From a virus, in IMG/VR virus record IMGVR_UViG_3300005471_000048, positions 1 through 27,778 of that record: a stretch of DNA of 27,778 nucleotides; one strand, 5' to 3'. Of the stretch, positions 1 to 27,778 are shown in pieces. Every line of letters begins with the position of its first letter. Within the stretch, counting starts at the first letter, position 1. The position numbers and the translations under genes were made by a program. The notes beneath the pieces were generated by a model. It was not told where the DNA came from. It worked only from the letters and a program-made list of their open reading frames with translations, and did no database searches.

Positions 1-16
1 CGTGTTCCGCGAGGAG
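1..16. repeat. Terminal direct repeat, left copy (circularity signature)
   Basis: The first 16 bases are identical to the last 16 bases of the window (27763-27778). The open reading frame entering the right copy leaves the left copy in the same frame. This is what a circular or circularly permuted genome gives when it is linearised with a short overlap. The unique length would then be about 27,762 bp. Confidence 0.9.
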
Positions 17-5317: not shown

Positions 5318-5577
5318 CTCCCGAGCGTAGGATCGCGCGCCTTCGGACCTGGGTCCTCGTCCTCACGATCGTCGTCGTGTTCGGCGCGATCTCGGGTCCG
5401 ATCATCGTGCAGGCGCTCGTGTCCAACGCCGGGGACGAGACCCAGCTCGAGGTCGGGTGTCAGATCATCCGCTCGGAGCTACGGACCCACGAAGACCTCG
5501 CCGACATACGTCGAGTCCTCGGTCTGCCGCTGGGTCCCCCACCCCAGGAGGTGCCGCCCGAGTGCGATGGTCACTGA
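5314..5577 (+). CDS. Small membrane protein of the lysis cassette
   Basis: The 87-residue product starts at the ATGA overlap with the XhlA-like gene. It has a basic N-terminus (PERRIARLRTW), one strong transmembrane helix (residues 12-35), and a soluble tail ending in a proline-rich stretch with two cysteines. The topology suits a holin partner or a spanin-like protein, but no family was recognised. Its last bases overlap the GTG start of the RTX-like gene. Confidence 0.6.
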   Translation: MTPERRIARLRTWVLVLTIVVVFGAISGPIIVQALVSNAGDETQLEVGCQIIRSELRTHEDLADIRRVLGLPLGPPPQEVPPECDGH

Positions 5578-6137
5578 TCTCCCTCGTCCTGGCAACGATC
5601 GCGTCCCTCGCCCTGGTCGCTGCTGGTGGGGAGTCCTCGAGGGCACCATCACCTTGCACATGGACCGGGACTCCCGAGCGCGACGTGAAGACCGGGACCG
5701 CGGGCGCGAACGTCCTGTGTGCCTTGCCGGGCAACGACTTCATCCACGGTGCCGCGGGCAACGATGTGCTCCGAGCCGGCAAGGGGCGCGACGTGGCGGT
5801 GGGCGGCGGTGGCCGTGACGTGCTGCGCGGTGGCCGTGGACGCGATCGGCTATTCGCCGTGGACGACCAGGGCGGGGAGCGCATCGTTGGCGGGCGAGGC
5901 AACGACCAGTGTTTCGCCGACCCCGGCGATGTCGTGTTCGGATGTGAGCAGACCTTTCGATCCAACGAGCCCGAGATGGCGAGCGCGCTCGGTCAGTCGC
6001 TCCGTTCCGTGATGGAGATCGTCGAGGAGGTCGCGGCGACGGCGACCGTGCCGCCGCCAATCGTCACCGAGACGGCCACCGTGACCCAGACCTTCCCGCC
6101 GTGCGTTCCACCGAACACGCCACCACCGTTCTGTTAG
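5562..6137 (+). CDS. Secreted RTX-like (haemolysin-type Ca-binding repeat) protein
   Basis: From GTG 5562 the product is 191 residues: a signal peptide (VRWSLISLVLATIASLALVAAG), then a Cys-containing segment and about five glycine-aspartate nonapeptides (LPGNDFIHG, AAGNDVLRAG, KGRDVAVGG, GGRDVLRGG, RGRDRLF), then GGRGNDQCF and DVVFGCE. These match the beta-roll GGxGxDxLx type that binds calcium. The C-terminus is Pro/Thr-rich with valines. Proteins of this composition with paired cysteines are common in soil actinobacterial genomes. Inside a lysis cassette this looks like an acquired cargo gene (moron). It may act on the cell surface of the lysogen or be a virion or lysis accessory; the function is unknown. 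Confidence 0.7.
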   Translation: MRWSLISLVLATIASLALVAAGGESSRAPSPCTWTGTPERDVKTGTAGANVLCALPGNDFIHGAAGNDVLRAGKGRDVAVGGGGRDVLRGGRGRDRLFAVDDQGGERIVGGRGNDQCFADPGDVVFGCEQTFRSNEPEMASALGQSLRSVMEIVEEVAATATVPPPIVTETATVTQTFPPCVPPNTPPPFC

Positions 6138-6690: not shown

Positions 6691-7680
6691 TCAGAGGCTC
6701 TGAACGGCCCGCCGGACCCGCTCGTCGGTCCCGGCCACGTACCGCGCCCACTGCGACAGGTCAGCGTGGTTCATGAACCGCCGCCAGGTCTCGGGATCTG
6801 AGGACCGAGCGACCCTAGTCGACGCCGCGTGGCGCAGGAGATGCGGCCAGACCCTGCCGAGGCCGGCCTCCTGCTCGGCGGCGTGGACCCACTGACGGAA
6901 CCGCTCGGCGCCGACACCGATGAGGGCGTAAGATGACGGAGCCGGGGCACCAGGCCCCGTATCGCATCGGTCCCCAGCCTGCAGGCGGGACAACGAGCGA
7001 TCCTGGTTCGGGAGTCCGTCAGCGCGGGCTCGTCCGCCGGGGGGACGCTCTGCAGGGCGCCCCCCACGGCTTAGTAGGTGCCGAGCCGCGATCACTCCGG
7101 TCCGCTCGAGCGGCACGCTGTACGGCTTCCCACCCTTGGCCTCGAGCAGGTCAATGCGAGCGTCCGGGCCGAGGTGGACGTCGGCCGGTTTCACCTGCAT
7201 CAGCGACCCGACCCGAGCGCCGGTGACGTAGCAGAGCAGAATCGCCCACCCTCGCCGAGGCTCACGGCGGAAGGCGGCGCGGAGCAGCCGGCGCAGCTCG
7301 TCGTCGGACAGGTCCGGCGCCGGAGGTACCTTCGGCCGGGGGATGGGGATGTGTCCGGCTGGGTCGTCATCCTTCTCCCCGCTCATGTGCGCCCACCGAC
7401 AGAATGCGCGGAGCGCCCGTAGGGCGTCGCCCCGTTTCGACCCGTTGCGGGGGAGGGCGCCGAGGTACTCCTCGACATGCCGGGCGCGGACGTCGGCGAG
7501 CTCGAACCCTGCCGGGAACAGGTAGTCCGTCCACCAACAGAGCAGCTCGTACCGGTACTTCCTCCGTGTGGCGTCGGATCGTCCGAGGACATCAAGGTGG
7601 CGGTCGAACCGACGGAGCACCGCGGGGAAGGTGCGGTCCTCCATCTCTACGTCATCGGCGACAAGGGCTACGGCGCGCAT
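6691..7680 (-). CDS. int: Tyrosine-type integrase
   Basis: The 329-residue site-specific recombinase has an N-terminal SAM-like core-binding domain (about 15-110) and a catalytic domain from about 120. The catalytic residues can be placed: Arg156 in TGARVGSL, Lys in the AKGGK hairpin near 182-185, HLLRH at 280-284 (His280 and Arg283), His305 in MNHADL, and the nucleophile Tyr314 in WARYV. ATG 7680 is chosen because the further upstream frame overlaps the repressor in another frame. A Gly/Pro/Arg-rich stretch at about 203-250 separates the Lys hairpin from HxxR and has poor third-position GC; see findings. It integrates the phage into the host chromosome and lies next to the repressor, as in most temperate actinophages. 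Confidence 0.88.
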   Translation of the reverse strand: MRAVALVADDVEMEDRTFPAVLRRFDRHLDVLGRSDATRRKYRYELLCWWTDYLFPAGFELADVRARHVEEYLGALPRNGSKRGDALRALRAFCRWAHMSGEKDDDPAGHIPIPRPKVPPAPDLSDDELRRLLRAAFRREPRRGWAILLCYVTGARVGSLMQVKPADVHLGPDARIDLLEAKGGKPYSVPLERTGVIAARHLLSRGGRPAERPPGGRARADGLPNQDRSLSRLQAGDRCDTGPGAPAPSSYALIGVGAERFRQWVHAAEQEAGLGRVWPHLLRHAASTRVARSSDPETWRRFMNHADLSQWARYVAGTDERVRRAVQSL

Positions 7681-7714
7681 CGGTCGGTTAGGTGGTTCGG
7701 GTGGGGAGGCTGGG

Positions 7715-8002
7715 CTAGGCCGCTTGGGTTTGGGTTTGACCGTTGGAGGACGCCCGCGTGGCCGAAGGCGGATTCCCAAGAGGTGCTCCCACCTCGAGGA
7801 ACCGCTCGAACGGCACATCGTATAGCCCGGCGAGCAGGAGCAGGTCTTCGATCTCGATCGCCCGCTCGCCCTTCTCGATCCTGGACAGGCGCGACGTGTC
7901 GATGCCGGTCGCCTGCTCGACCTGAACCTGGGACAGCCCGCTCTCGGCGCGTGCTCCGCGGAGTCGTCCGGCGAGCTTCTGTCGGTACGTCTCTCGGTCC
8001 AT
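7715..8002 (-). CDS. XRE-family repressor (immunity repressor candidate)
   Basis: The 95-residue product has a classical XRE helix-turn-helix at about residues 14-65 (RGARAESGLSQVQVEQATG, then IDTSRLSRIEKGERAI and a scaffold helix ending YDVPFERFLEV). The C-terminal 25 residues are polar and likely disordered. ATG 8002 is preceded by GGGAGGGCGAGGG on the minus strand. It is divergent from the Cro-like gene and next to the integrase, which makes it the likely lysogeny repressor. No peptidase (S24) domain is present, so induction is not by LexA-like self-cleavage. Confidence 0.82.
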   Translation of the reverse strand: MDRETYRQKLAGRLRGARAESGLSQVQVEQATGIDTSRLSRIEKGERAIEIEDLLLLAGLYDVPFERFLEVGAPLGNPPSATRASSNGQTQTQAA

Positions 8003-8037
8003 CGGCCCTCGCCCTCCCTGGGGAATGGGGTACGTAG

Positions 8038-8057
8038 TCTGGGGGATTCCTCCCAGA
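8038..8057. promoter_or_regulatory. Inverted repeat, possible operator for the leftward promoter
   Basis: TCTGGG (8038-8043) and CCCAGA (8052-8057) are perfect inverted arms around an 8-base centre, and the inner bases are partly symmetric. A minus-strand TTGACT lies at 8064-8059, just upstream in the direction of the repressor gene. No good -10 box is visible at 16-18 bases, so the leftward promoter is uncertain. Confidence 0.5.
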
Positions 8058-8083
8058 TAGTCAAATCCATACCCGGTGAGGGG

Positions 8084-8112
8084 TTGACTGCTCGCCCGTG
8101 GGCGAGTACGGT
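8084..8112 (+). promoter_or_regulatory. Rightward early promoter with palindromic operator in the spacer
   Basis: TTGACT (8084-8089), a 17-base spacer, then TACGGT (8107-8112): a good sigma70-type promoter. The spacer contains the perfect palindrome CTCGCCC-GT-GGGCGAG (8091-8106). A repressor dimer bound there would block RNA polymerase directly. The predicted transcription start is near 8119, only about two bases before ATG 8121. Confidence 0.8.
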
Positions 8113-8120
8113 ACCCACCC

Positions 8121-8348
8121 ATGCAAGCAATGCCCGCACTCGCAAGGCTCCGAGGTGCCCGCGGCCTCTCGCAGCGGCAGCTCGCCCAGCGCGCTGACCT
8201 CACCGTCGAGACCGTCTCGGACATCGAGCGTGGCGCGACGGCCAGGCCGTATCCGTCCACGATCCGCAAGCTCGCGCGCGCCCTCGAGATGGACTTCGAC
8301 GAGCTGGCGGCGCTGCTGACCGAGGAGCCCGACGAGGTGTCAGCGTGA
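8121..8348 (+). CDS. Cro-like XRE-family regulator
   Basis: The 75-residue protein carries a single XRE helix-turn-helix across nearly its whole length: LRGARGLSQRQLAQRADLTVETVSDIERG, then a scaffold helix and LEMDFDELAALL. It is the first gene of the rightward early operon and is divergent from the repressor, so a Cro-like role in the lytic switch is likely. There is almost no 5' leader between the predicted promoter and ATG, so translation is probably leaderless. Its end overlaps the next gene by GTGA. Confidence 0.8.
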   Translation: MQAMPALARLRGARGLSQRQLAQRADLTVETVSDIERGATARPYPSTIRKLARALEMDFDELAALLTEEPDEVSA

Positions 8349-15875: not shown

Positions 15876-15926
15876 TCCGAGCGCATCTCCGCGTGCGTCC
15901 CCACGCCCTGCGGTCGTGCGCTCGGA
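15876..15926. promoter_or_regulatory. Leader hairpin 2 (perfect 10-bp stem with inner stem)
   Basis: TCCGAGCGCA (15876-15885) pairs perfectly with TGCGCTCGGA (15917-15926). An inner stem GCGTG/CACGC (15891-15895 with 15902-15906) lies inside. The structure ends nine bases before the GAGGAGGA ribosome binding site of the next gene. It could control antitermination or translation of the late operon. Confidence 0.65.
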
Positions 15927-15948
15927 CCCATGTCCGAGGAGGACGCAG

Positions 15949-17121
15949 TTGAGCAAGGTCCCCGACGTCGATCAGATTGCGACGAAGCTGCTCGACCTCG
16001 GTCTGTCGGCGCGAATGATGGCCCCGGCATGGGACAAGGCGGGCATCCGCCAACCCGCGATGGGACCGGAGGGGCAGTTCGTGGGATGGATGCTCCCCGG
16101 CAAGGGTCTGCTCCTCGACGGCCTCGACAAGGACCGGGTCGGCATCACACGCGAGATGCCCTACGTGTACGACTATTCGCCGTTCGCACGCAAGCGTGAC
16201 TTCTTCCTTCGCCGACTCCGCGATCTCCATCGGAGCGAGGTCGGGGCCATCACGACATACGACGACATAGTCAACGCGCGAGCGAACGGCAAGGCGCGAG
16301 ACGCGGCGTTCCAGAAGGCGTCGATCACCACTGCGGCAGGGTTCTGGTACGACACCTGGCGCGCTACTGGCTCCGGGGGCGCCGGAACGTTCCTCGGCAC
16401 AACGGCCCCGACTGACGCTGCGCTTGACGCCACAACGACTGGAACGCTGTTCGGCGGATCGCCTTTCAATCCGTCGGGCTCGGACAAATCCTACCTGCTG
16501 ACCATGGGCATCTTCGCGGGGTCGGCGCACTTCATGGCTCTGCTCATCGACCGCCACATCTCGGGCGGGGCCTATCGCCTGTCGGTGTCCACGACCGAGA
16601 CCACGGGCACGCCCGACACCGTCACGCGCGACTATGGCGGAGGTGCAGGCGTCGGAGCCCAGCTCATCGCCACCGTCAGAACGGCTCGCGCGACCCCCGG
16701 CGCAGGAACCTGGGCCGTGACCTACCTCGACCAGGGCGGCGCTTCGTCGGTGAGTGCCGCGAACGCACTCCCCGCGACGGCCGACCCCGTGGACCGGCTC
16801 GTCGCCCACGTCAGCGTGTCGCACCCATTCGTTCAACTTGAGGCCGGTGACACCGGGGTCAAACAGATCGTTTCATCGGCTCGGGTGGCGGCGCTCGACA
16901 CCACTGGGGACGTTGCTATCTCCATCGTGCAGCCGCTCGTGTGGATACCCATGCTGAACGCGGCGAGCATCTATCTCGAGCGAGACCTGCCGTCGGACCT
17001 GTCGGGTCTGATCGAGCTGGCTAATGTCAGCTTGGCGACCGGGGCACTCAGCCTCCTCATGTACGCGAACGCAGCCACCCTCGGTGCGGTCATGGGGTTC
17101 ATCCGAACCTGTCAGGGATAA
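15949..17121 (+). CDS. Putative virion protein (late cassette, unknown role)
   Basis: From TTG 15949 (GAGGAGGA six bases upstream) the product is 390 residues. The N-terminal third is alpha-beta with a VPDVDQIATKLLDLG start. The middle is rich in Gly, Thr and Ser, with WYDTWRATGSGGAGTF and many beta strands. The C-terminus is hydrophobic (LANVSLATGALSLLMYANAATLGAVMGF). Composition and position in front of other beta-rich genes suggest a capsid or fibre-associated protein. TTG is preferred over GTG 15916, which lies within the leader hairpin. No family recognised. Confidence 0.6.
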   Translation: MSKVPDVDQIATKLLDLGLSARMMAPAWDKAGIRQPAMGPEGQFVGWMLPGKGLLLDGLDKDRVGITREMPYVYDYSPFARKRDFFLRRLRDLHRSEVGAITTYDDIVNARANGKARDAAFQKASITTAAGFWYDTWRATGSGGAGTFLGTTAPTDAALDATTTGTLFGGSPFNPSGSDKSYLLTMGIFAGSAHFMALLIDRHISGGAYRLSVSTTETTGTPDTVTRDYGGGAGVGAQLIATVRTARATPGAGTWAVTYLDQGGASSVSAANALPATADPVDRLVAHVSVSHPFVQLEAGDTGVKQIVSSARVAALDTTGDVAISIVQPLVWIPMLNAASIYLERDLPSDLSGLIELANVSLATGALSLLMYANAATLGAVMGFIRTCQG

Positions 17122-17124
17122 CCG

Positions 17125-17427
17125 ATGGCTCTCATCGGCAACTCCACGGGGTCGGCATTTCACGGCAGCATCGAGGGCGCGTTCAGGGGAGGTTGGCGGT
17201 TCTTCCTCCACAGCACGAACACGACCGGGTCAGGAACCAGGGAAGCCTTCCAGGGTCAGAGTCTGAACGGGCAGTTCCGAAAGAACAACGATGGACCGGG
17301 ATGGACGAGCAACCGGACGACCTCGACACCTGACAAGTTCCGGCCGATCCCGTTCAAGGCCATCGTGTCTGCGGCGGTTTCGCTCATCGCAAGCCTCGCT
17401 CGCCGAGACCTACTCGGCCGACGATAG
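17125..17427 (+). CDS. Small putative virion protein
   Basis: The 100-residue product is rich in Gly, Ser, Thr and aromatic residues (STGSAFHGSIEGAFRGGWRFF), with a hydrophobic C-terminal helix followed by basic residues (AAVSLIASLARRDLLGRR). It starts three bases after the previous stop, at TAACCGATGG, a junction also used at 17931. It may be a minor structural protein; no family recognised. Confidence 0.55.
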   Translation: MALIGNSTGSAFHGSIEGAFRGGWRFFLHSTNTTGSGTREAFQGQSLNGQFRKNNDGPGWTSNRTTSTPDKFRPIPFKAIVSAAVSLIASLARRDLLGRR

Positions 17428-17435
17428 GAGGGACC

Positions 17436-17927
17436 ATGCAGGGTCGCATCTACACCGTCCAGTTCGACAACGTGGCGATCACCACGGCGGCGGACTTCTT
17501 CGAGCTCGACCCGGCGGCCGACAAGCCCATCCGGATCCTGGCGATCGACATCGGCCAGACGAACAGAACCGGCGATGCGAACGAAGACATGGTGCGGTGG
17601 GCCATCGCCCGTTTCAGCGGTGCGACGATCACCTCCGGCTCGGGCGGGACAACCCCGACCCCGGTTCCGCTGAACCCTGGGGACGTGGCGGCGTCATTCA
17701 CCGCCGAAGCGGCGAACACGACTGCGGCGACCACGTCCGGCTCGAACTTCGTCGCCCACGTCTCGACGTTCAATACTCGGGTGGGTCTGCTCTGGGTTCC
17801 ACCGCCGGAGTGTCTGACGTTGTGCGTCGACAACGGCGGCAACTCGAAACTCCTGGTGCGGCTGCTTGAGGCACCGTCCGCGTCGACGACGTTCTCCGGC
17901 ACCTGCTACGTCGAAGAACTCGGCTAA
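17436..17927 (+). CDS. Beta-sandwich virion-associated protein (GSGGxTPTP type)
   Basis: The 163-residue product starts with YTVQFDNVAITTAADFFEL and has the central GSGGTTPTPVPLNPGDVAASF and TSGSNFVAHVSTFN stretches, then WVPPPE and CYVEELG at the end. This pattern (SGG-x-TPTP followed by GD-x-AA) recurs in phage-encoded structural proteins that look like one beta-sandwich domain. GGAGGGACC before ATG is a good RBS. It probably decorates the virion; the exact place is unknown. Confidence 0.6.
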   Translation: MQGRIYTVQFDNVAITTAADFFELDPAADKPIRILAIDIGQTNRTGDANEDMVRWAIARFSGATITSGSGGTTPTPVPLNPGDVAASFTAEAANTTAATTSGSNFVAHVSTFNTRVGLLWVPPPECLTLCVDNGGNSKLLVRLLEAPSASTTFSGTCYVEELG

Positions 17928-17930
17928 CCG

Positions 17931-18074
17931 ATGGGGCTGCACCGTCAGCCCTCCCGGAACGCACATCGGCTGGCGATCTATCGGCGGCGCAGGGCATTCG
18001 GGGTTACGGGCGCAGCTCCGACGGTGTCCCTGCTGCATAGGCGAACGATGGCGAAGCTGGTGACGGTCCGGTGA
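17931..18074 (+). CDS. Arg-rich 47-residue protein, member 1 of a trio
   Basis: ATG 17931 follows the previous stop as TAACCGATGG. The 47-residue basic product contains HRLAIYRRRRAFG followed by an APTVSLLHRR motif. Its TGA overlaps the GTG start of the next basic gene. The motif of an Arg patch plus a short hydrophobic strand recurs in both following genes. Confidence 0.5.
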   Translation: MGLHRQPSRNAHRLAIYRRRRAFGVTGAAPTVSLLHRRTMAKLVTVR

Positions 18075-18463
18075 GGTTCCGCCAGCCACCCAGGCGCGCG
18101 ATCCAGCAGGCGGTCTACCACCAGCGCCGGCCACTGGCGATCGGCTCGAGGCCGGCGCGGTCCTCGCTGCAGTTACAGGCTCGCCATCGTGGGGTGCGTC
18201 ACCGTAGGCGCTACCCCACGCAGCAGCGCACGATGGCGTTCCTACATCACCGCCGGATCATCGGCTCGGTGTTCGTTGCGCCGACGGTGTTCTCGCTGGC
18301 GACACGGCCCAAGGGCAAGGCGTCGCGGCGTCCACGGTCACGGCAGGCTGGGATCAACGCCATGCAGCGAAAGCACCGCCCGCTGTCCATAGGATCGAGG
18401 CCGACAGGGAGGGCGCTCGTGCGGTCTCACCCCATGAGCCGGAACGTGTTGCTGCGCCGATGA
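18071..18463 (+). CDS. Arg-rich 130-residue protein, member 2 of a trio
   Basis: GTG 18071 overlaps the previous stop. The very basic product has two internal copies of a similar module: HQRRPLAIGSRPARSS and KHRPLSIGSRPTGRAL. Between them lies a hydrophobic strand (GSVFVAPTVFSLATR) like the APTVSLL of member 1. It has no obvious acidic partner and could bind nucleic acid or the capsid interior. It overlaps the next gene by ATGA. Confidence 0.5.
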   Translation: MRFRQPPRRAIQQAVYHQRRPLAIGSRPARSSLQLQARHRGVRHRRRYPTQQRTMAFLHHRRIIGSVFVAPTVFSLATRPKGKASRRPRSRQAGINAMQRKHRPLSIGSRPTGRALVRSHPMSRNVLLRR

Positions 18464-18837
18464 GTGCCCCGGTCTACCGCCGGGGTCCACGCCAGGCTTA
18501 CGGCCAGCGCAGGGCACGAGGCTGGGTCGGCTCACGCACTGTTGTCGCTGGTGCATCCCTGCTCCCTCGGCGTCGCCAGCCACGGCGACGTCGAGCACCA
18601 CAGCTCCATGCTCGGCTACCACGACGTCTGACCCTAGGGCCATCTGGCGTAGTCGTTGTCACCCCAGTGTTCATCACCGAGGGCGACGCCGACGCACTGG
18701 TCACGCTGCAGGGTAGTGGTGCGATGGCGTCTGCACTCGAGCTCGACACCGATGCAACGGCAGGCCGAGAGGGCGACGACGGCAAGGCGGACAGCATCGA
18801 GGGCGGCGTGCTCATCGGGACAGGGCTCGAGTCGTGA
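18460..18837 (+). CDS. Arg-rich then acidic 125-residue protein, member 3 of a trio
   Basis: The product has a basic N-terminal half (YRRGPRQAYGQRRARGWVG, then GASLLPRRRQPRRRRAP) related in pattern to the two upstream genes. A hydrophobic strand (SGVVVVTPVFI) and an acidic C-terminal half with ALELDTDATAG and GDDGKADSIEGG follow. The switch from strongly basic to acidic may mark a fusion of two modules. No family recognised. Confidence 0.5.
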   Translation: MSAPVYRRGPRQAYGQRRARGWVGSRTVVAGASLLPRRRQPRRRRAPQLHARLPRRLTLGPSGVVVVTPVFITEGDADALVTLQGSGAMASALELDTDATAGREGDDGKADSIEGGVLIGTGLES

Positions 18838-18944: not shown

Positions 18945-19319
18945 GTGGGTTCTCCCGGTGGCAGGCTGCAGGTCCCCGACGGATACAACCGAGGCGAGCA
19001 TGGCTTCATGGTGCTGCTCGAGGCGCAGGGTGGCAGGTGCGCGATCTGCGGGGATCAGCAGGGGATGGAGCTCATCCCCGACCATGACCATCTGAGCGGT
19101 AGACCTCGAGGCCTGCTCTGCTCACCGTGCAACCTCGGTCTCGGGATGATGGCCGATGACCCCGAGCGGTTGCGTGCCGCCATGATCTACGTCACGACAT
19201 GGCGTCTGTCTCACGCCGAGCAGGCCACGGCCCAGCGTGAACGACGCAAGGCCCAGCGTGCCGGGGTGAAGCGGTCGAACCTATACGGGCCGAACGCCCG
19301 CCCCGTCTCATCGGGGTGA
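18945..19319 (+). CDS. HNH endonuclease, endonuclease VII-like
   Basis: The 124-residue product carries the recombination endonuclease VII pattern: LLEAQGGRCAICG, then LIPDHDH, GRPRGLLCSPCNLGLG and DDPERLRAAMIYV. The four Cys (CAIC and CSPC) bind zinc, and the DHDH/N residues form the beta-beta-alpha metal active site. Phage relatives cut branched DNA or nick host DNA, and can act in packaging or as homing-like nucleases. GTG start at 18945 follows GAGG. Confidence 0.85.
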   Translation: MGSPGGRLQVPDGYNRGEHGFMVLLEAQGGRCAICGDQQGMELIPDHDHLSGRPRGLLCSPCNLGLGMMADDPERLRAAMIYVTTWRLSHAEQATAQRERRKAQRAGVKRSNLYGPNARPVSSG

Positions 19320-19436: not shown

Positions 19437-19700
19437 ATGAGCATGACTCGCAACGTCGTGTACGGCTCGCGGTGGCGCCAGGTCAGACTGACCGTCCTTC
19501 AGCGCGACGGGTGGCAGTGTCAGATACGGGGACCGCGGTGCACCGGGCGCGCGAGCGACGTCGATCACATCATCGACTGGCACATCGGCGGCGCCCTGTA
19601 CGACCTCGAGAACCTGCGCTCGGTCTGTCGGACCTGTCACAACCGGAAGACACACGCAGGGCACGTACAGGCCGAGCGGCGGCCCAGCCGCGAATGGTAG
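19437..19700 (+). CDS. Small HNH endonuclease adjacent to terminase (HK97 gp74-like)
   Basis: The 87-residue product has the short HNH pattern: RWRQVRLTVLQRDGWQCQI, DVDHIIDWHIGGALYDLENLRSVCRTCHNRKT. The His of DHI, the Asn in LENL and the His of CHN form the active site, and the Cys residues bind zinc. Such HNH proteins next to the large terminase are needed for specific cos cleavage in HK97-type phages. Its stop overlaps the terminase start. Confidence 0.85.
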   Translation: MSMTRNVVYGSRWRQVRLTVLQRDGWQCQIRGPRCTGRASDVDHIIDWHIGGALYDLENLRSVCRTCHNRKTHAGHVQAERRPSREW

Positions 19701-21085
19701 GGGCCTGCGCGCCCAGGTACGCGACGCGGCGCCGACCCGAGCGGTTCACGTTCGGGCACCGGCTCGCTGCGCTGGCCGAGGTGCTCGGCGTGCCGTTCAT
19801 GCCGTGGCAGTCCTACGTCGCCGACGTCGGGTGCGAGATCGAGGCCGAGACCGGGTTCCCGGCGTACAACGAGGTCATCGTCACGGTCCCGCGGCAATCG
19901 GGGAAGACCACGCTGAATCTGTCGTGGCAGCTCGATCGCTGCCTGCATTGGGGCTCACCTCAGCGTTCGGCCTTCACCGCCCAGACAGGCAAGGACGCGC
20001 GGGACAAGTGGATCGACGAGCTGTTCCCGCAGCTCGAGGCGTCCGAGCTCGCCGGCAAGATCGCGGCGATCAACCGCGGGATGGGCAACGAGGCCGTCCG
20101 GTTCCGTAACGGCTCGCTCATCCGCATCCTGTCGACGTCGGCGTCCTCGGGGCACTCGAAGACGCTCGACCAGGCCGTGATGGACGAGGTCTGGCACGAC
20201 TACGACGACCGGCGCGAGCAGGGGCTCCGGCCGGCGATGATCACGCGGGAGGACCGGCAGCTCCTGATCTGCTCGACGGCCGGGACCGCCGCCTCGACGG
20301 TGTACAACGCGAAGGTCGCGGCGGGACGGCGGGCTGTGGAGGCCGATGTCGGTCACGGCATCGCGTACTTCGAGTGGTCGGCGCCGGAGGAATGGGATCC
20401 GGAGGACCGCGAGTCGTGGTGGTCGTTCATGCCCGCGCTCGGGTTCACGATCACCGAGCGGTCGATCGAGTCCGAACGTCTGGCGATGAAACCCGGCGAG
20501 TTTCGCCGGGCCTACGGGAACCGGCCGACGATGGGCGTCGAGATGATCCTGCCGCTCGAGACCTGGCAACGGGCGTGCGACCCGACCGCCAAGCCCGAGG
20601 GCGCTTTACGGTTCGGCCTGGACGTCGCCGAGGACCGGGCCTCGGCCGCCATCGTGGCCGCGGGCGCCAACGGCGTCGTCGAGCTCATCGACCACCGGCC
20701 GGGGATCGGGTGGGTCGTCGATCGCGCCAACGAGCTCATCGACCGCCACGGCACGGCGATCGCCCTGGACTTCGGCGGTCCCGCGGGGGTGGTGGCCGAC
20801 TCGTTGCGCCGGTGTGAGCGGATGACCGGCCGCACCGTGCTGCAGGCGTGCGCCGCGACGTACGACGCGATCATCGAGGGCACGGTGCGCTTCCGCACCG
20901 ACCAGGCGTTCGACGCCGCGATCCACGGGGCTGTGCGCAAGGTCGTCGGCGATATGTGGGCGTGGTCGCGCAAGGGGTCGGTGGCCGACATCACGCCGAT
21001 CATGGCGGCGTCGCTCGCCCTGCGGTCAACGGTCACGACGCTCGCGCCCGGCTACTACGACCTCGACGATACGGAGACCGGATGA
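19694..21085 (+). CDS. terL: Terminase large subunit
   Basis: From ATG 19694 (or GTG 19697) the product is 463 residues. ATPase motifs: Walker A VPRQSGKTT (about 65-73), the SSGHSKTLDQ coupling region and Walker B AVMDEVW. The nuclease half has GLDVAEDRASAAIV (first acidic residue), ALDFGGPAGVV (second) and a late DITPIMAASLAL. It translocates DNA into the prohead and cuts it. The upstream frame is open but overlaps the HNH gene. No recognisable small terminase lies upstream; the HNH proteins may substitute in part. Confidence 0.93.
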   Translation: MVGACAPRYATRRRPERFTFGHRLAALAEVLGVPFMPWQSYVADVGCEIEAETGFPAYNEVIVTVPRQSGKTTLNLSWQLDRCLHWGSPQRSAFTAQTGKDARDKWIDELFPQLEASELAGKIAAINRGMGNEAVRFRNGSLIRILSTSASSGHSKTLDQAVMDEVWHDYDDRREQGLRPAMITREDRQLLICSTAGTAASTVYNAKVAAGRRAVEADVGHGIAYFEWSAPEEWDPEDRESWWSFMPALGFTITERSIESERLAMKPGEFRRAYGNRPTMGVEMILPLETWQRACDPTAKPEGALRFGLDVAEDRASAAIVAAGANGVVELIDHRPGIGWVVDRANELIDRHGTAIALDFGGPAGVVADSLRRCERMTGRTVLQACAATYDAIIEGTVRFRTDQAFDAAIHGAVRKVVGDMWAWSRKGSVADITPIMAASLALRSTVTTLAPGYYDLDDTETG

Positions 21086-22359
21086 GCCTGCTCGAACGGC
21101 TGGATCAGTTCCTCTGGGCGCCCGAGCGCCGCGCCGAACAGCACGCCATCGACCGGATGGATCTGTGGGGTCGGGGCGAGTCGATCGGCGAGCCCGTCCA
21201 CGCCGGGGTGGAGGTCTCGCAGGAGGGCGCGCTGCGCCTGTCGGTCGTGTGGCGGTGCGTGAGGCTGATCTCCGAGACGCTCGCGGGACTGCCGGCCGAC
21301 GTGGTGCGGAAGAAGGGCGACATCCGCCAGCCAGTCGAGCGGCCTCCCGCGTGGCTCGAGCAGCCGAACCCGGAGGCGACGTGGTTCGAGTTCACCGAGC
21401 GCGTCTTCGAGTCGCTGCTGATGGATGGGAACGCGTTCATCGTCATCACCGCTCGGGACTCGACGACGTTCCCGAGCGAGCTGAACACGCTGAACCCGCA
21501 GATGGTGCAGGTCAAGCGTCGTCGCAACGGTCAGACGTTCTTCCTGTGGGACGGCCAGCGTGAGCTCGAGCGGTACGGGCCGACCGCTCCCGGCGGCGAG
21601 GTGCTGCACATCAGACTCGCGTCGGGGGGGACCGGGCGCGGCTTGTCCCCGATCGCGGCGGCGATGCAGTCGATCGGGCTGGCGCTGGCCGCCGAGAAGC
21701 AGGGTGCGCGGTTCTACGGCCGGGGACAGACGCTCGCGGGTCTGATGGAGTTCGAGCCGACGGCGACGCAGGAGAACGTCGACCTAACCAAAGCCAACTG
21801 GCGGCGTCGGCACGCCGGCACCGATCGTGCGTACGAGCCCGGCATCCTGGTCGGTGCGAAGTGGAAGCCGATGTCCGTCACGCCCGAGGAGGGGCAGTTC
21901 CTACAGACGCGGGCGTTCCAGGTCGAGGACATCGCGTCGAGGTTCTACGGCATCCCGCCCCACCTCGTCGGGCTGACCGAGAAACAGACGAGCTGGGGCA
22001 CCGGGGTCGAGCAGCAGGGGATCGGGTTGTACCGGTTCACGCTGCGCGGTCACATGATCCGGTTCGAGCAGGCGATGAGCCAACTGCTGCCGCGGGGGCA
22101 GTTCCTACGGCTGAACCCAAGGGCGCTGCTCGAGGCCGACTCGGAGACCGAGGCGAAGGTGCTGCAGACGGCGCTGCAGAACGCGGTCATCACCCGCAAC
22201 GACTGGCGGGCGATCCTGGACAAGGCTCCGGTGCCAGGGGGCGACCGGTTCATCCTTCCGGCGCAGATGCAGATCCTCACCCCGGCGGGTGAGATGGAGG
22301 CCAAACCCGAATCGGCACCGAGCTCCAACGGGAAGGTTCCAGCGGAGGTGAACCCGTGA
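21082..22359 (+). CDS. Portal protein (HK97 family)
   Basis: The 425-residue product follows the terminase with an ATGA overlap. Typical features: an N-terminal ALRLSVVWRCVRLISETLAGLP helix, PAWLEQPNP, LLMDGNAFIV, a FQVEDIASRFYGIPPHLVGL segment and an EQQGIGLYRFTLRGHMIRFEQAM region. The dodecameric portal forms the DNA entry ring and the head-tail joint. The Pro/Ser/Asn-rich C-terminus is probably disordered. Confidence 0.95.
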   Translation: MSLLERLDQFLWAPERRAEQHAIDRMDLWGRGESIGEPVHAGVEVSQEGALRLSVVWRCVRLISETLAGLPADVVRKKGDIRQPVERPPAWLEQPNPEATWFEFTERVFESLLMDGNAFIVITARDSTTFPSELNTLNPQMVQVKRRRNGQTFFLWDGQRELERYGPTAPGGEVLHIRLASGGTGRGLSPIAAAMQSIGLALAAEKQGARFYGRGQTLAGLMEFEPTATQENVDLTKANWRRRHAGTDRAYEPGILVGAKWKPMSVTPEEGQFLQTRAFQVEDIASRFYGIPPHLVGLTEKQTSWGTGVEQQGIGLYRFTLRGHMIRFEQAMSQLLPRGQFLRLNPRALLEADSETEAKVLQTALQNAVITRNDWRAILDKAPVPGGDRFILPAQMQILTPAGEMEAKPESAPSSNGKVPAEVNP

Positions 22360-23279
22360 GGCAGATGGAGTACGAGACGATGGGGTTCGAGCTTGCGCAG
22401 CTCGAGCTGCACTCAGACGGCGACGGTCGCACGATGGTCGGATACGCGAGCGCGTTCGACGTGCCGATGATGGGCGACGCCGGCGAGACGGTCGTGATGG
22501 ACCCGCGCGTGTGGGACAAGACGCTCAAGGAACGCGCCGGCCAGATCCAGGTGCTCTACCACCACGGCCGCGACCCTCAGATCGGGACGAAGCCGCTCGG
22601 GGTGCCCTCGGTGCTGCGGACGGATCGCAAGGGTCTGTGGACCGAGACACCGCTCGCCCACACGTCGTACAACGACGAGATCGTGATCCCACTGCTCGCA
22701 TCGGGGGCGCTGCGCGCCATGTCGGTCGGGTTCGGCGTGATCGCGCAGTCGTGGGACGACAAGGGCAACGAGCGCAGGGTGACCGAGGCGATCCTGGGCG
22801 AGTTCGGCCCGACGCCGTTCCCGCGGAACCTCGGTGCGACGGCCGCCCTGCACTCGATGGATCTGATCGAGTTCCTCGAGGAGCATTGGGATGGTGCCGC
22901 AGCGATGCGGGCGTGCTCGACCGCCGCCGACTTCCGGCAGATCGCGTTCGAGCGTTCCAACGACTCGGACCCTGACACGGCCGCCCACTGGACCCTGCCG
23001 CATCACCAGCGCCCCGGCGCTGGCGCCGACTCGGCCGGCGTCGCCGCAGCGCTTGGGGCGTTGAGCGGCGCTCGTGGTGGAGCACCGGACCTCAAGCAAT
23101 CCGTCGAAACAGTCAGGGCACATCTACAGGCGCACCAGGCCGAGTCATCGTCCGATGACGACCGCGGCACCGATGAGGCCGCCGCATCGTCGATCGGCGA
23201 CCGGCTCACCCGGCGCATGGACGAACACGCAGCCGACCTCGCAGAACAGGAGGCACGATGGCAAGCACTCGGGAGCTGA
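22356..23279 (+). CDS. Prohead protease (HK97 U35 type) with scaffold-like tail
   Basis: The 307-residue product starts at GTG 22356, overlapping the portal stop; ATG 22365 is an alternative. The S78/U35 protease core shows VGYASAFDVP, then IQVLYHHGRD with the active-site His and LRAMSVGFGV with the nucleophile Ser. From about residue 190 it becomes helical and charged, ending in DRLTRRMDEHAADLAEQEARW, which may help scaffold assembly. It cleaves the capsid delta domain during maturation. It overlaps the capsid gene by 22 bases. Confidence 0.93.
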   Translation: MRQMEYETMGFELAQLELHSDGDGRTMVGYASAFDVPMMGDAGETVVMDPRVWDKTLKERAGQIQVLYHHGRDPQIGTKPLGVPSVLRTDRKGLWTETPLAHTSYNDEIVIPLLASGALRAMSVGFGVIAQSWDDKGNERRVTEAILGEFGPTPFPRNLGATAALHSMDLIEFLEEHWDGAAAMRACSTAADFRQIAFERSNDSDPDTAAHWTLPHHQRPGAGADSAGVAAALGALSGARGGAPDLKQSVETVRAHLQAHQAESSSDDDRGTDEAAASSIGDRLTRRMDEHAADLAEQEARWQALGS

Positions 23280-27605: not shown

Positions 27606-27778
27606 TGGCGTCGATGCGCGTGGTCGCCGTCATGCTCGACGGGACGAAACACGAGGCCGTCGGGGTCTACATGGCGCTGTCGGATCGTGTCGCGTTCGAG
27701 CGGCACTTCGATGTCTCGATGATGCAGCTCCGGCGTGAGGCGCGCGGCGAGGAAGGGCTGAACGTGTTCCGCGAGGAG
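27605..27778 (+). CDS. Tail assembly chaperone, N-terminal part (continues at 2)
   Basis: ATG 27605 opens a frame of 58 codons that runs off the right end. With the overlap removed, it continues in the same frame at 2-178, giving about 111 residues. The N-terminal part has VVAVMLDGTKHEAVGVYM, then VAFERHFDVSMMQLRREARGEEGLNVFREE. See the C-terminal entry for the functional reasoning. Confidence 0.72.
   Translation, partial: MASMRVVAVMLDGTKHEAVGVYMALSDRVAFERHFDVSMMQLRREARGEEGLNVFREE
27763..27778. repeat. Terminal direct repeat, right copy
   Basis: Identical to bases 1-16; see the left copy. It confirms that the contig closes on itself in phase with the tail chaperone gene. Confidence 0.9.

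Follow-up and report, generated by a model that had tools for sequence, protein, structure and literature searches.

The locus raises the question of what three short, overlapping genes with arginine-rich products contribute to the phage that carries them just ahead of its terminase. We analysed the complete 27,778-base virus record IMGVR_UViG_3300005471_000048 (the window), the gene content of which is that of a temperate siphovirus-type phage (Table 1). A perfect 16-nt direct repeat, CGTGTTCCGCGAGGAG, is shared by both ends of the window (1–16 and 27763–27778), so the circular assembly may perhaps be complete. The block between the replication genes and the terminase contains, in order, genes for proteins of 401, 100 and 163 aa, the trio A, B and C, and endonuclease VII and HNH genes; the six genes from the 401-aa gene to C match no known family. 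Promoter-like or terminator-like sites were not seen in the region of the trio, and an Rfam search of the region found no family.

Two other features of the window are recorded here. The phage tail region encodes a 226-aa protein (5457–6137, plus strand) with RTX calcium-binding nonapeptide repeats (HemolysinCabind, E 7e-17). Between window 19694–22359 and L003:1076–3872, the terminases are 77% identical and the portals are distant relatives only, which indicates sharp mosaicism within the packaging block.

Table 1. Positions of the trio, its parts and other features, in window coordinates unless a contig is named
Feature	Position	Strand	Remarks
Tape measure	at 821		
Integrase	6691–8145	−	
Exonuclease, replication initiation and RusA genes	10–14 kb		
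401-aa neighbour	15916–17121	+	Uncertain start codon; without family; presumed to open the accessory cassette
100-aa neighbour	17125–17427	+	Basic C-terminus, SLIASLARRDLLGRR, resembling the ends of the module genes
163-aa neighbour	17436–17927	+	Modelled as a jelly-roll-like beta sandwich; the L002 and L012 arrays follow homologues (75% and 66%)
Gene A	17931–18074	+	47 aa; 21% Arg, no Asp/Glu; short module copy
Gene B	18071–18463	+	130 aa; GTG start; 23% Arg, no Asp/Glu; two module copies; C-terminus SRNVLLRR
32-nt repeat, first copy	18123–18154	+	Encodes RRPLAIGSRP
32-nt repeat, second copy	18372–18403	+	Encodes HRPLSIGSRP; 78% against first copy
Gene C (whole)	18460–18837	+	
Gene C, basic body	18460–18669	+	Residues 1–70 (MSAPVYRRGPRQAYG...); 24% Arg, no Asp/Glu
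Gene C, acidic tail	18670–18837	+	Residues 71–125 (FITEGDADALVTL...EGDDG...SIEGG...GLES); common to L002, L011 and L012
Endonuclease VII-like protein	18945–19319	+	Downstream limit of the cassette; HNH gene(s) adjoin
Terminase large subunit	19694–21085	+	
Portal	at 20848		
Protease	at 22356		
Major head protein	at 23258		Head–tail genes onward to window end
Proteins with similar basic C-termini	17125–17427; L012:1–399; L002:87–1298; L015:5249–5986		

A divergent tandem family

Gene A starts 3 nt past the stop codon of the 163-aa gene, and the 4-nt overlaps that couple A to B and B to C read GTGA and ATGA. The initial annotation, made from the sequence alone, had described three overlapping genes that share a repeated module, and its details hold: the genes lie as listed in Table 1, the peptides that it quoted are in frame (GAAPTVSLL in A, APTVFSL in B and GASLLPRRR in C), and the two copies that it saw inside B, RPLAIGSRPA and RPLSIGSRPT, are encoded by the 32-nt DNA repeat. 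A second repeat pair of 21 nt lies at 18015–18035 and 18278–18298 (81%). The switch to an acidic tail that it noted in the third gene is equally clear. The basic parts of the trio have a pI of 12, with Arg roughly ten times commoner than Lys and, in A and B, no Asp or Glu over 177 aa (Arg 21–23%), and the tail of C has a pI of 4.1, with 22% Asp/Glu. Strings resembling GASLLPRRR also occur outside the trio, where upstream LamG-type proteins end in similar basic C-termini.

The coding frame was tested because DNA of this kind, this window included, often contains spurious frames rich in Arg and poor in acidic residues. The trio might accordingly consist not of genes but of Arg-rich frames of GC-rich DNA with the true coding frame elsewhere, and codon usage alone, which over codons 1–57 of C gives frame +1 a better score than frame 0, agrees with that reading. 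Comparison with a related array in another phage contig, L002, gives a different answer. When all frame pairs are compared, the annotated frames score best. Codon position 3 is the most variable in nearly all pairs (the exception being A against the first module copy of B, 30 codons), in alignments made from the proteins, which somewhat favour third-position variation. C and the fourth L002 gene specify an identical peptide over their first 11 codons, with five synonymous differences, and starts, overlaps and the location behind the 163-aa gene are conserved. Codon statistics, which the initial annotation had named as a check on the frames, are thus divided, with the homology-based tests backing the annotated frames and codon usage siding with frame +1 over codons 1–57 of C. 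On the strength of these comparisons, together with the profile search below, we take A, B and C as real genes in the annotated frames; that they are not genes is largely refuted and scarcely credible.

Several lines of evidence establish their kinship. First, a profile built from three L002 genes only was searched against the 547 six-frame stretches of the window, and B (E 7e-17), C (0.003) and A (0.009) were its top three matches, the next stretch following at E 0.18. The module profile search proposed with the initial annotation, here with a profile made without the window, therefore recovers exactly the trio at the top. Second, alignments of the two module copies of B (B1 and B2) with each other, of A with B1 and of B1 with C outscore all 300 composition-preserving shuffles. 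Third, in shuffle tests B reaches z values of 6–9 against the L002 genes, and C reaches 22 against L002 gene 4. Gene A is the weakest member, both in the profile search and against single L002 genes (z −0.9 to 2.8). The trio is a divergent tandem family with a shared repeated module, as had been surmised, and four coupled copies stand at the same place in L002.

The family had also been thought undescribed, which agrees with our searches: there is no accepted family match for the trio in Pfam, PHROGs, NCBIfam or PADLOC, including the PADLOC models of defence systems; module matches in 50,697 phage records are marginal and partial (best E 0.3); no homologue with an established function was found in these libraries and records; and a literature search found no description of such an array. 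Weak Pfam matches of B and C, to DarA_C (E 0.21) and Herpes_UL56 (E 0.05), fall below the cut-offs and were dismissed. Gene B used directly against viral contigs found no relative, and the PDB holds no sequence relative of the module or of the 163-aa family. No host was identified, since scans of genome contigs with the 163-aa family and with the terminase large subunit (TerL) were empty. An annotated 47-aa ORF with 28% Arg lies near the terminase of podovirus ctkAd229 (L016:8568–8711); we claim no kinship for it.

Related arrays and their acidic end

In L002, a 164-aa homologue (75%) of the 163-aa gene is followed by four coupled Arg-rich genes of 83, 86, 86 and 124 aa, which overlap by TGATG, ATGA and ATGA. 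The fourth gene and C both begin MSAPVYRRGPR and end in an acidic tail, which in the fourth gene contains the 10-residue repeat LEGDSVTIGT; at the DNA level, this acidic decapeptide is encoded by a 30-nt tandem repeat of three to four copies (L002:2770–2889). In L012, the homologue of the 163-aa gene (66%) precedes a single 259-aa ORF with ten GR[ILV]RLRS.A repeats of 18–22 aa and the same acidic tail; single-sequence structure prediction gives an all-beta body at low confidence (pLDDT 57). In L011, the tail closes a LamG-type protein with Ala/Pro/Val repeats at the end of the contig, the opposite end of which carries a terminase 77% identical to that of the window. The L011 body is not basic; it is an Ala/Pro sequence of negative net charge, not clearly homologous to the bodies of the trio. 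The repeat proteins of L012, L011 and L015 have no match in the phage records, a test weakened by the BLAST low-complexity filter.

The acidic tail is conserved in all four phages (window, L002, L011 and L012), as alignment and profile agree, and a tail profile built without the window finds the window tail at E 9e-10. Neither inspection by eye nor a profile supported a proposed identity of the C tail with the 'ITE' motif of the MEP401 tail protein.

L002 and L012 are close relatives: their TerL proteins are 97% identical, and their DNA hardly differs over the acidic tail and the gene that follows it. Upstream of the tail, the alignment ends abruptly, with four genes in L002 and one ORF in L012, and the L012 body compares with the L002 body genes at near shuffle level (z −0.2 to 2.6). 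Because these bodies are unrelated yet both about 20–24% Arg and almost free of Asp/Glu, beside near-identical tail DNA, the pair points to exchange of the body, perhaps under selection on composition, as judged from two phages. The basic charge of the body is kept in L002 and L012 and absent in L011, so that the charge pattern seems to be kept in most, but not all, relatives.

Cassette context and candidate roles

The neighbours of the array are of structural and surface type. The 163-aa family is modelled as a jelly-roll-like sandwich (pLDDT 73), with PDB fold matches up to Z 7.6 that lie within the range of unspecific matches, and the protein matches predicted tailed-phage proteins down to E 1.5e-7. 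The array stands directly behind this structural-type gene in three phages. Surface-type neighbours in relatives include LamG-type proteins and members of the virion structural PHROGs 3758 and 240; the Gp80 podophage fibre family (PF23140) is matched only by the L012 neighbour at 403–1044. Searches of A, B and C found neither a LamG nor a Gp80 domain, LamG occurring only in neighbours of relatives. In L014 and L015, repeat proteins with Arg-rich, WI[GA]-bearing N-termini lie one or two genes beyond the 163-aa homologue; their likeness to the trio is confined to that short low-complexity N-terminus and is not significant as sequence kinship. The cassette also occurs beside other, only distantly related terminases and portals, and therefore seems to move as a unit: a swappable set of fibre-, lectin- and jelly-roll-type genes before the terminase.

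Two further observations concern these neighbours. Similar basic C-terminal peptides (SLLAPRRTARNSLLRR, SLIASLARRDLLGRR), which resemble the ends of module genes (RNVLLRR), close several structural-type proteins (Table 1). Additionally, L023:5542–8880 encodes a 1112-aa fusion of a LamG-type domain, Ala/Pro repeats and a region of phrog_5313, the family of the window gene just after the tape measure, which carries no functional annotation as a family.

We tentatively favour the reading that A, B and C are accessory components of the virion surface, where we infer them to be located, and form a hypervariable, polycationic element of this swappable adhesin cassette. The module would be a short Arg-rich peptide with a hydrophobic, beta-strand-prone segment, and tandem duplication of a unit equipped with an overlapping stop and start of its own (CGC CGA TGA) could add further copies. 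The last protein would add the acidic tail as the conserved end of the array, and this tail might plausibly dock, either onto the basic modules or onto an invariant partner in the virion. Electrostatic attraction between the Arg faces and anionic polymers of the host envelope may keep the particle attached, in addition to the specific binding that the LamG, jelly-roll and fibre neighbours would provide. The array would then be a charged stalk or coat, lengthened by copying modules and capped by the acidic tail. A bolder version, which we consider rather unlikely, makes the array a virion polyelectrolyte selected mainly for its charge and its end-cap and less for its sequence: a tandem-duplicating, stop/start-coupled polyarginine beta-strand coat with one conserved acidic cap, the body of which is swapped wholesale between near-identical phages at a recombination boundary inside the tail.

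The initial annotation had suggested peptides that bind DNA or the capsid. Putative capsid binding of the trio is compatible with the findings; DNA binding is less likely, given the acidic tail on a non-basic body in L011 and the fibre, lectin-like and jelly-roll-like neighbours in relatives. The main rival to a place on the virion surface is nevertheless nucleic-acid binding, by protamine-like proteins packaged or ejected with the genome or used in packaging. Such a role is proposed because the genes lie just upstream of the terminase and the bodies are almost acid-free; the high pI, the preference for Arg over Lys, the adjoining nucleases and the basic composition that L012 retains though its sequence is lost all speak for it. 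We still judge it unlikely, and unlikely as a conserved role, because the tail in L011 caps an Ala/Pro body, wholly non-basic, that is joined to a LamG-type domain, and because the upstream neighbours are of surface type in a cassette also present in phages with different terminases and portals. L011 counts against a function shared by the relatives, less so against one in the window.

Small, coupled, fast-evolving tandem paralogues that match no known family would also suit intracellular host-takeover or anti-defence proteins, an improbable role for genes with a constant place after a 163-aa structural-type gene in three phages and with a counterpart in L011 that fuses LamG, repeats and tail. 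Membrane-active cationic lysis peptides, to which the trio bears a likeness in being small and cationic with short hydrophobic strands, and of which the disruptins of some phages are examples, are very improbable here, with no recognised lysis gene nearby and with acid-capped tandem copies and L011 and L012 architectures that fit them poorly.

Comparison with known systems

If the virion-surface reading is correct, a part of the phage surface would retain composition and charge while its sequence is freely exchanged, and copying a module with its own start codon would be a simple genetic route to lengthening it. Environmental phages would then offer a case in which charge-driven adhesion can be tested, and the acidic tail together with the 163-aa gene before the terminase would serve as a marker for hypervariable cassettes in metagenomes.

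Protamine-like proteins and basic viral core proteins combine extreme Arg content with an acid-free body. The body of the trio is likewise Arg-rich and free of acidic residues; the trio differs from them in its acidic tail, its tandem coupled genes and its non-basic counterpart in L011. The 163-aa neighbour, rather than the trio, recalls the capsid turret of Haloferax tailed virus 1 (HFTV1; PDB 8QPG), to which its model aligns over 105 residues at Z 7.2 and 3.0 Å, in the unspecific range; the head of that turret is proposed to bind host glycans (PMC12494034).

In setting, the trio resembles the accessory fibre and lectin cassettes of tailed phages (LamG/concanavalin-like, Pfam Laminin_G_3; podophage GP4 fibre I gp80, PF23140), which occupy the same neighbourhood in relatives, are modular and exchanged between phages, and in L011, L022 and L023 combine LamG and repeats by fusion. 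By contrast, the trio, with no LamG or Gp80 domain, consists of small coupled genes with Arg-rich products. The proteins with 18–22-aa beta-strand repeats at L014:1202–2182 and L015:7094–8038 likewise lie downstream of the 163-aa homologue and have an Arg-rich WIG/WIA N-terminus, but they are long single proteins with Ser/Gly/Ala repeats and without this acidic tail. Variable accessory cassettes with repeat-bearing adhesins are thus already known; what is new is an Arg-rich form that is split into stop/start-coupled genes and has a conserved acidic end.
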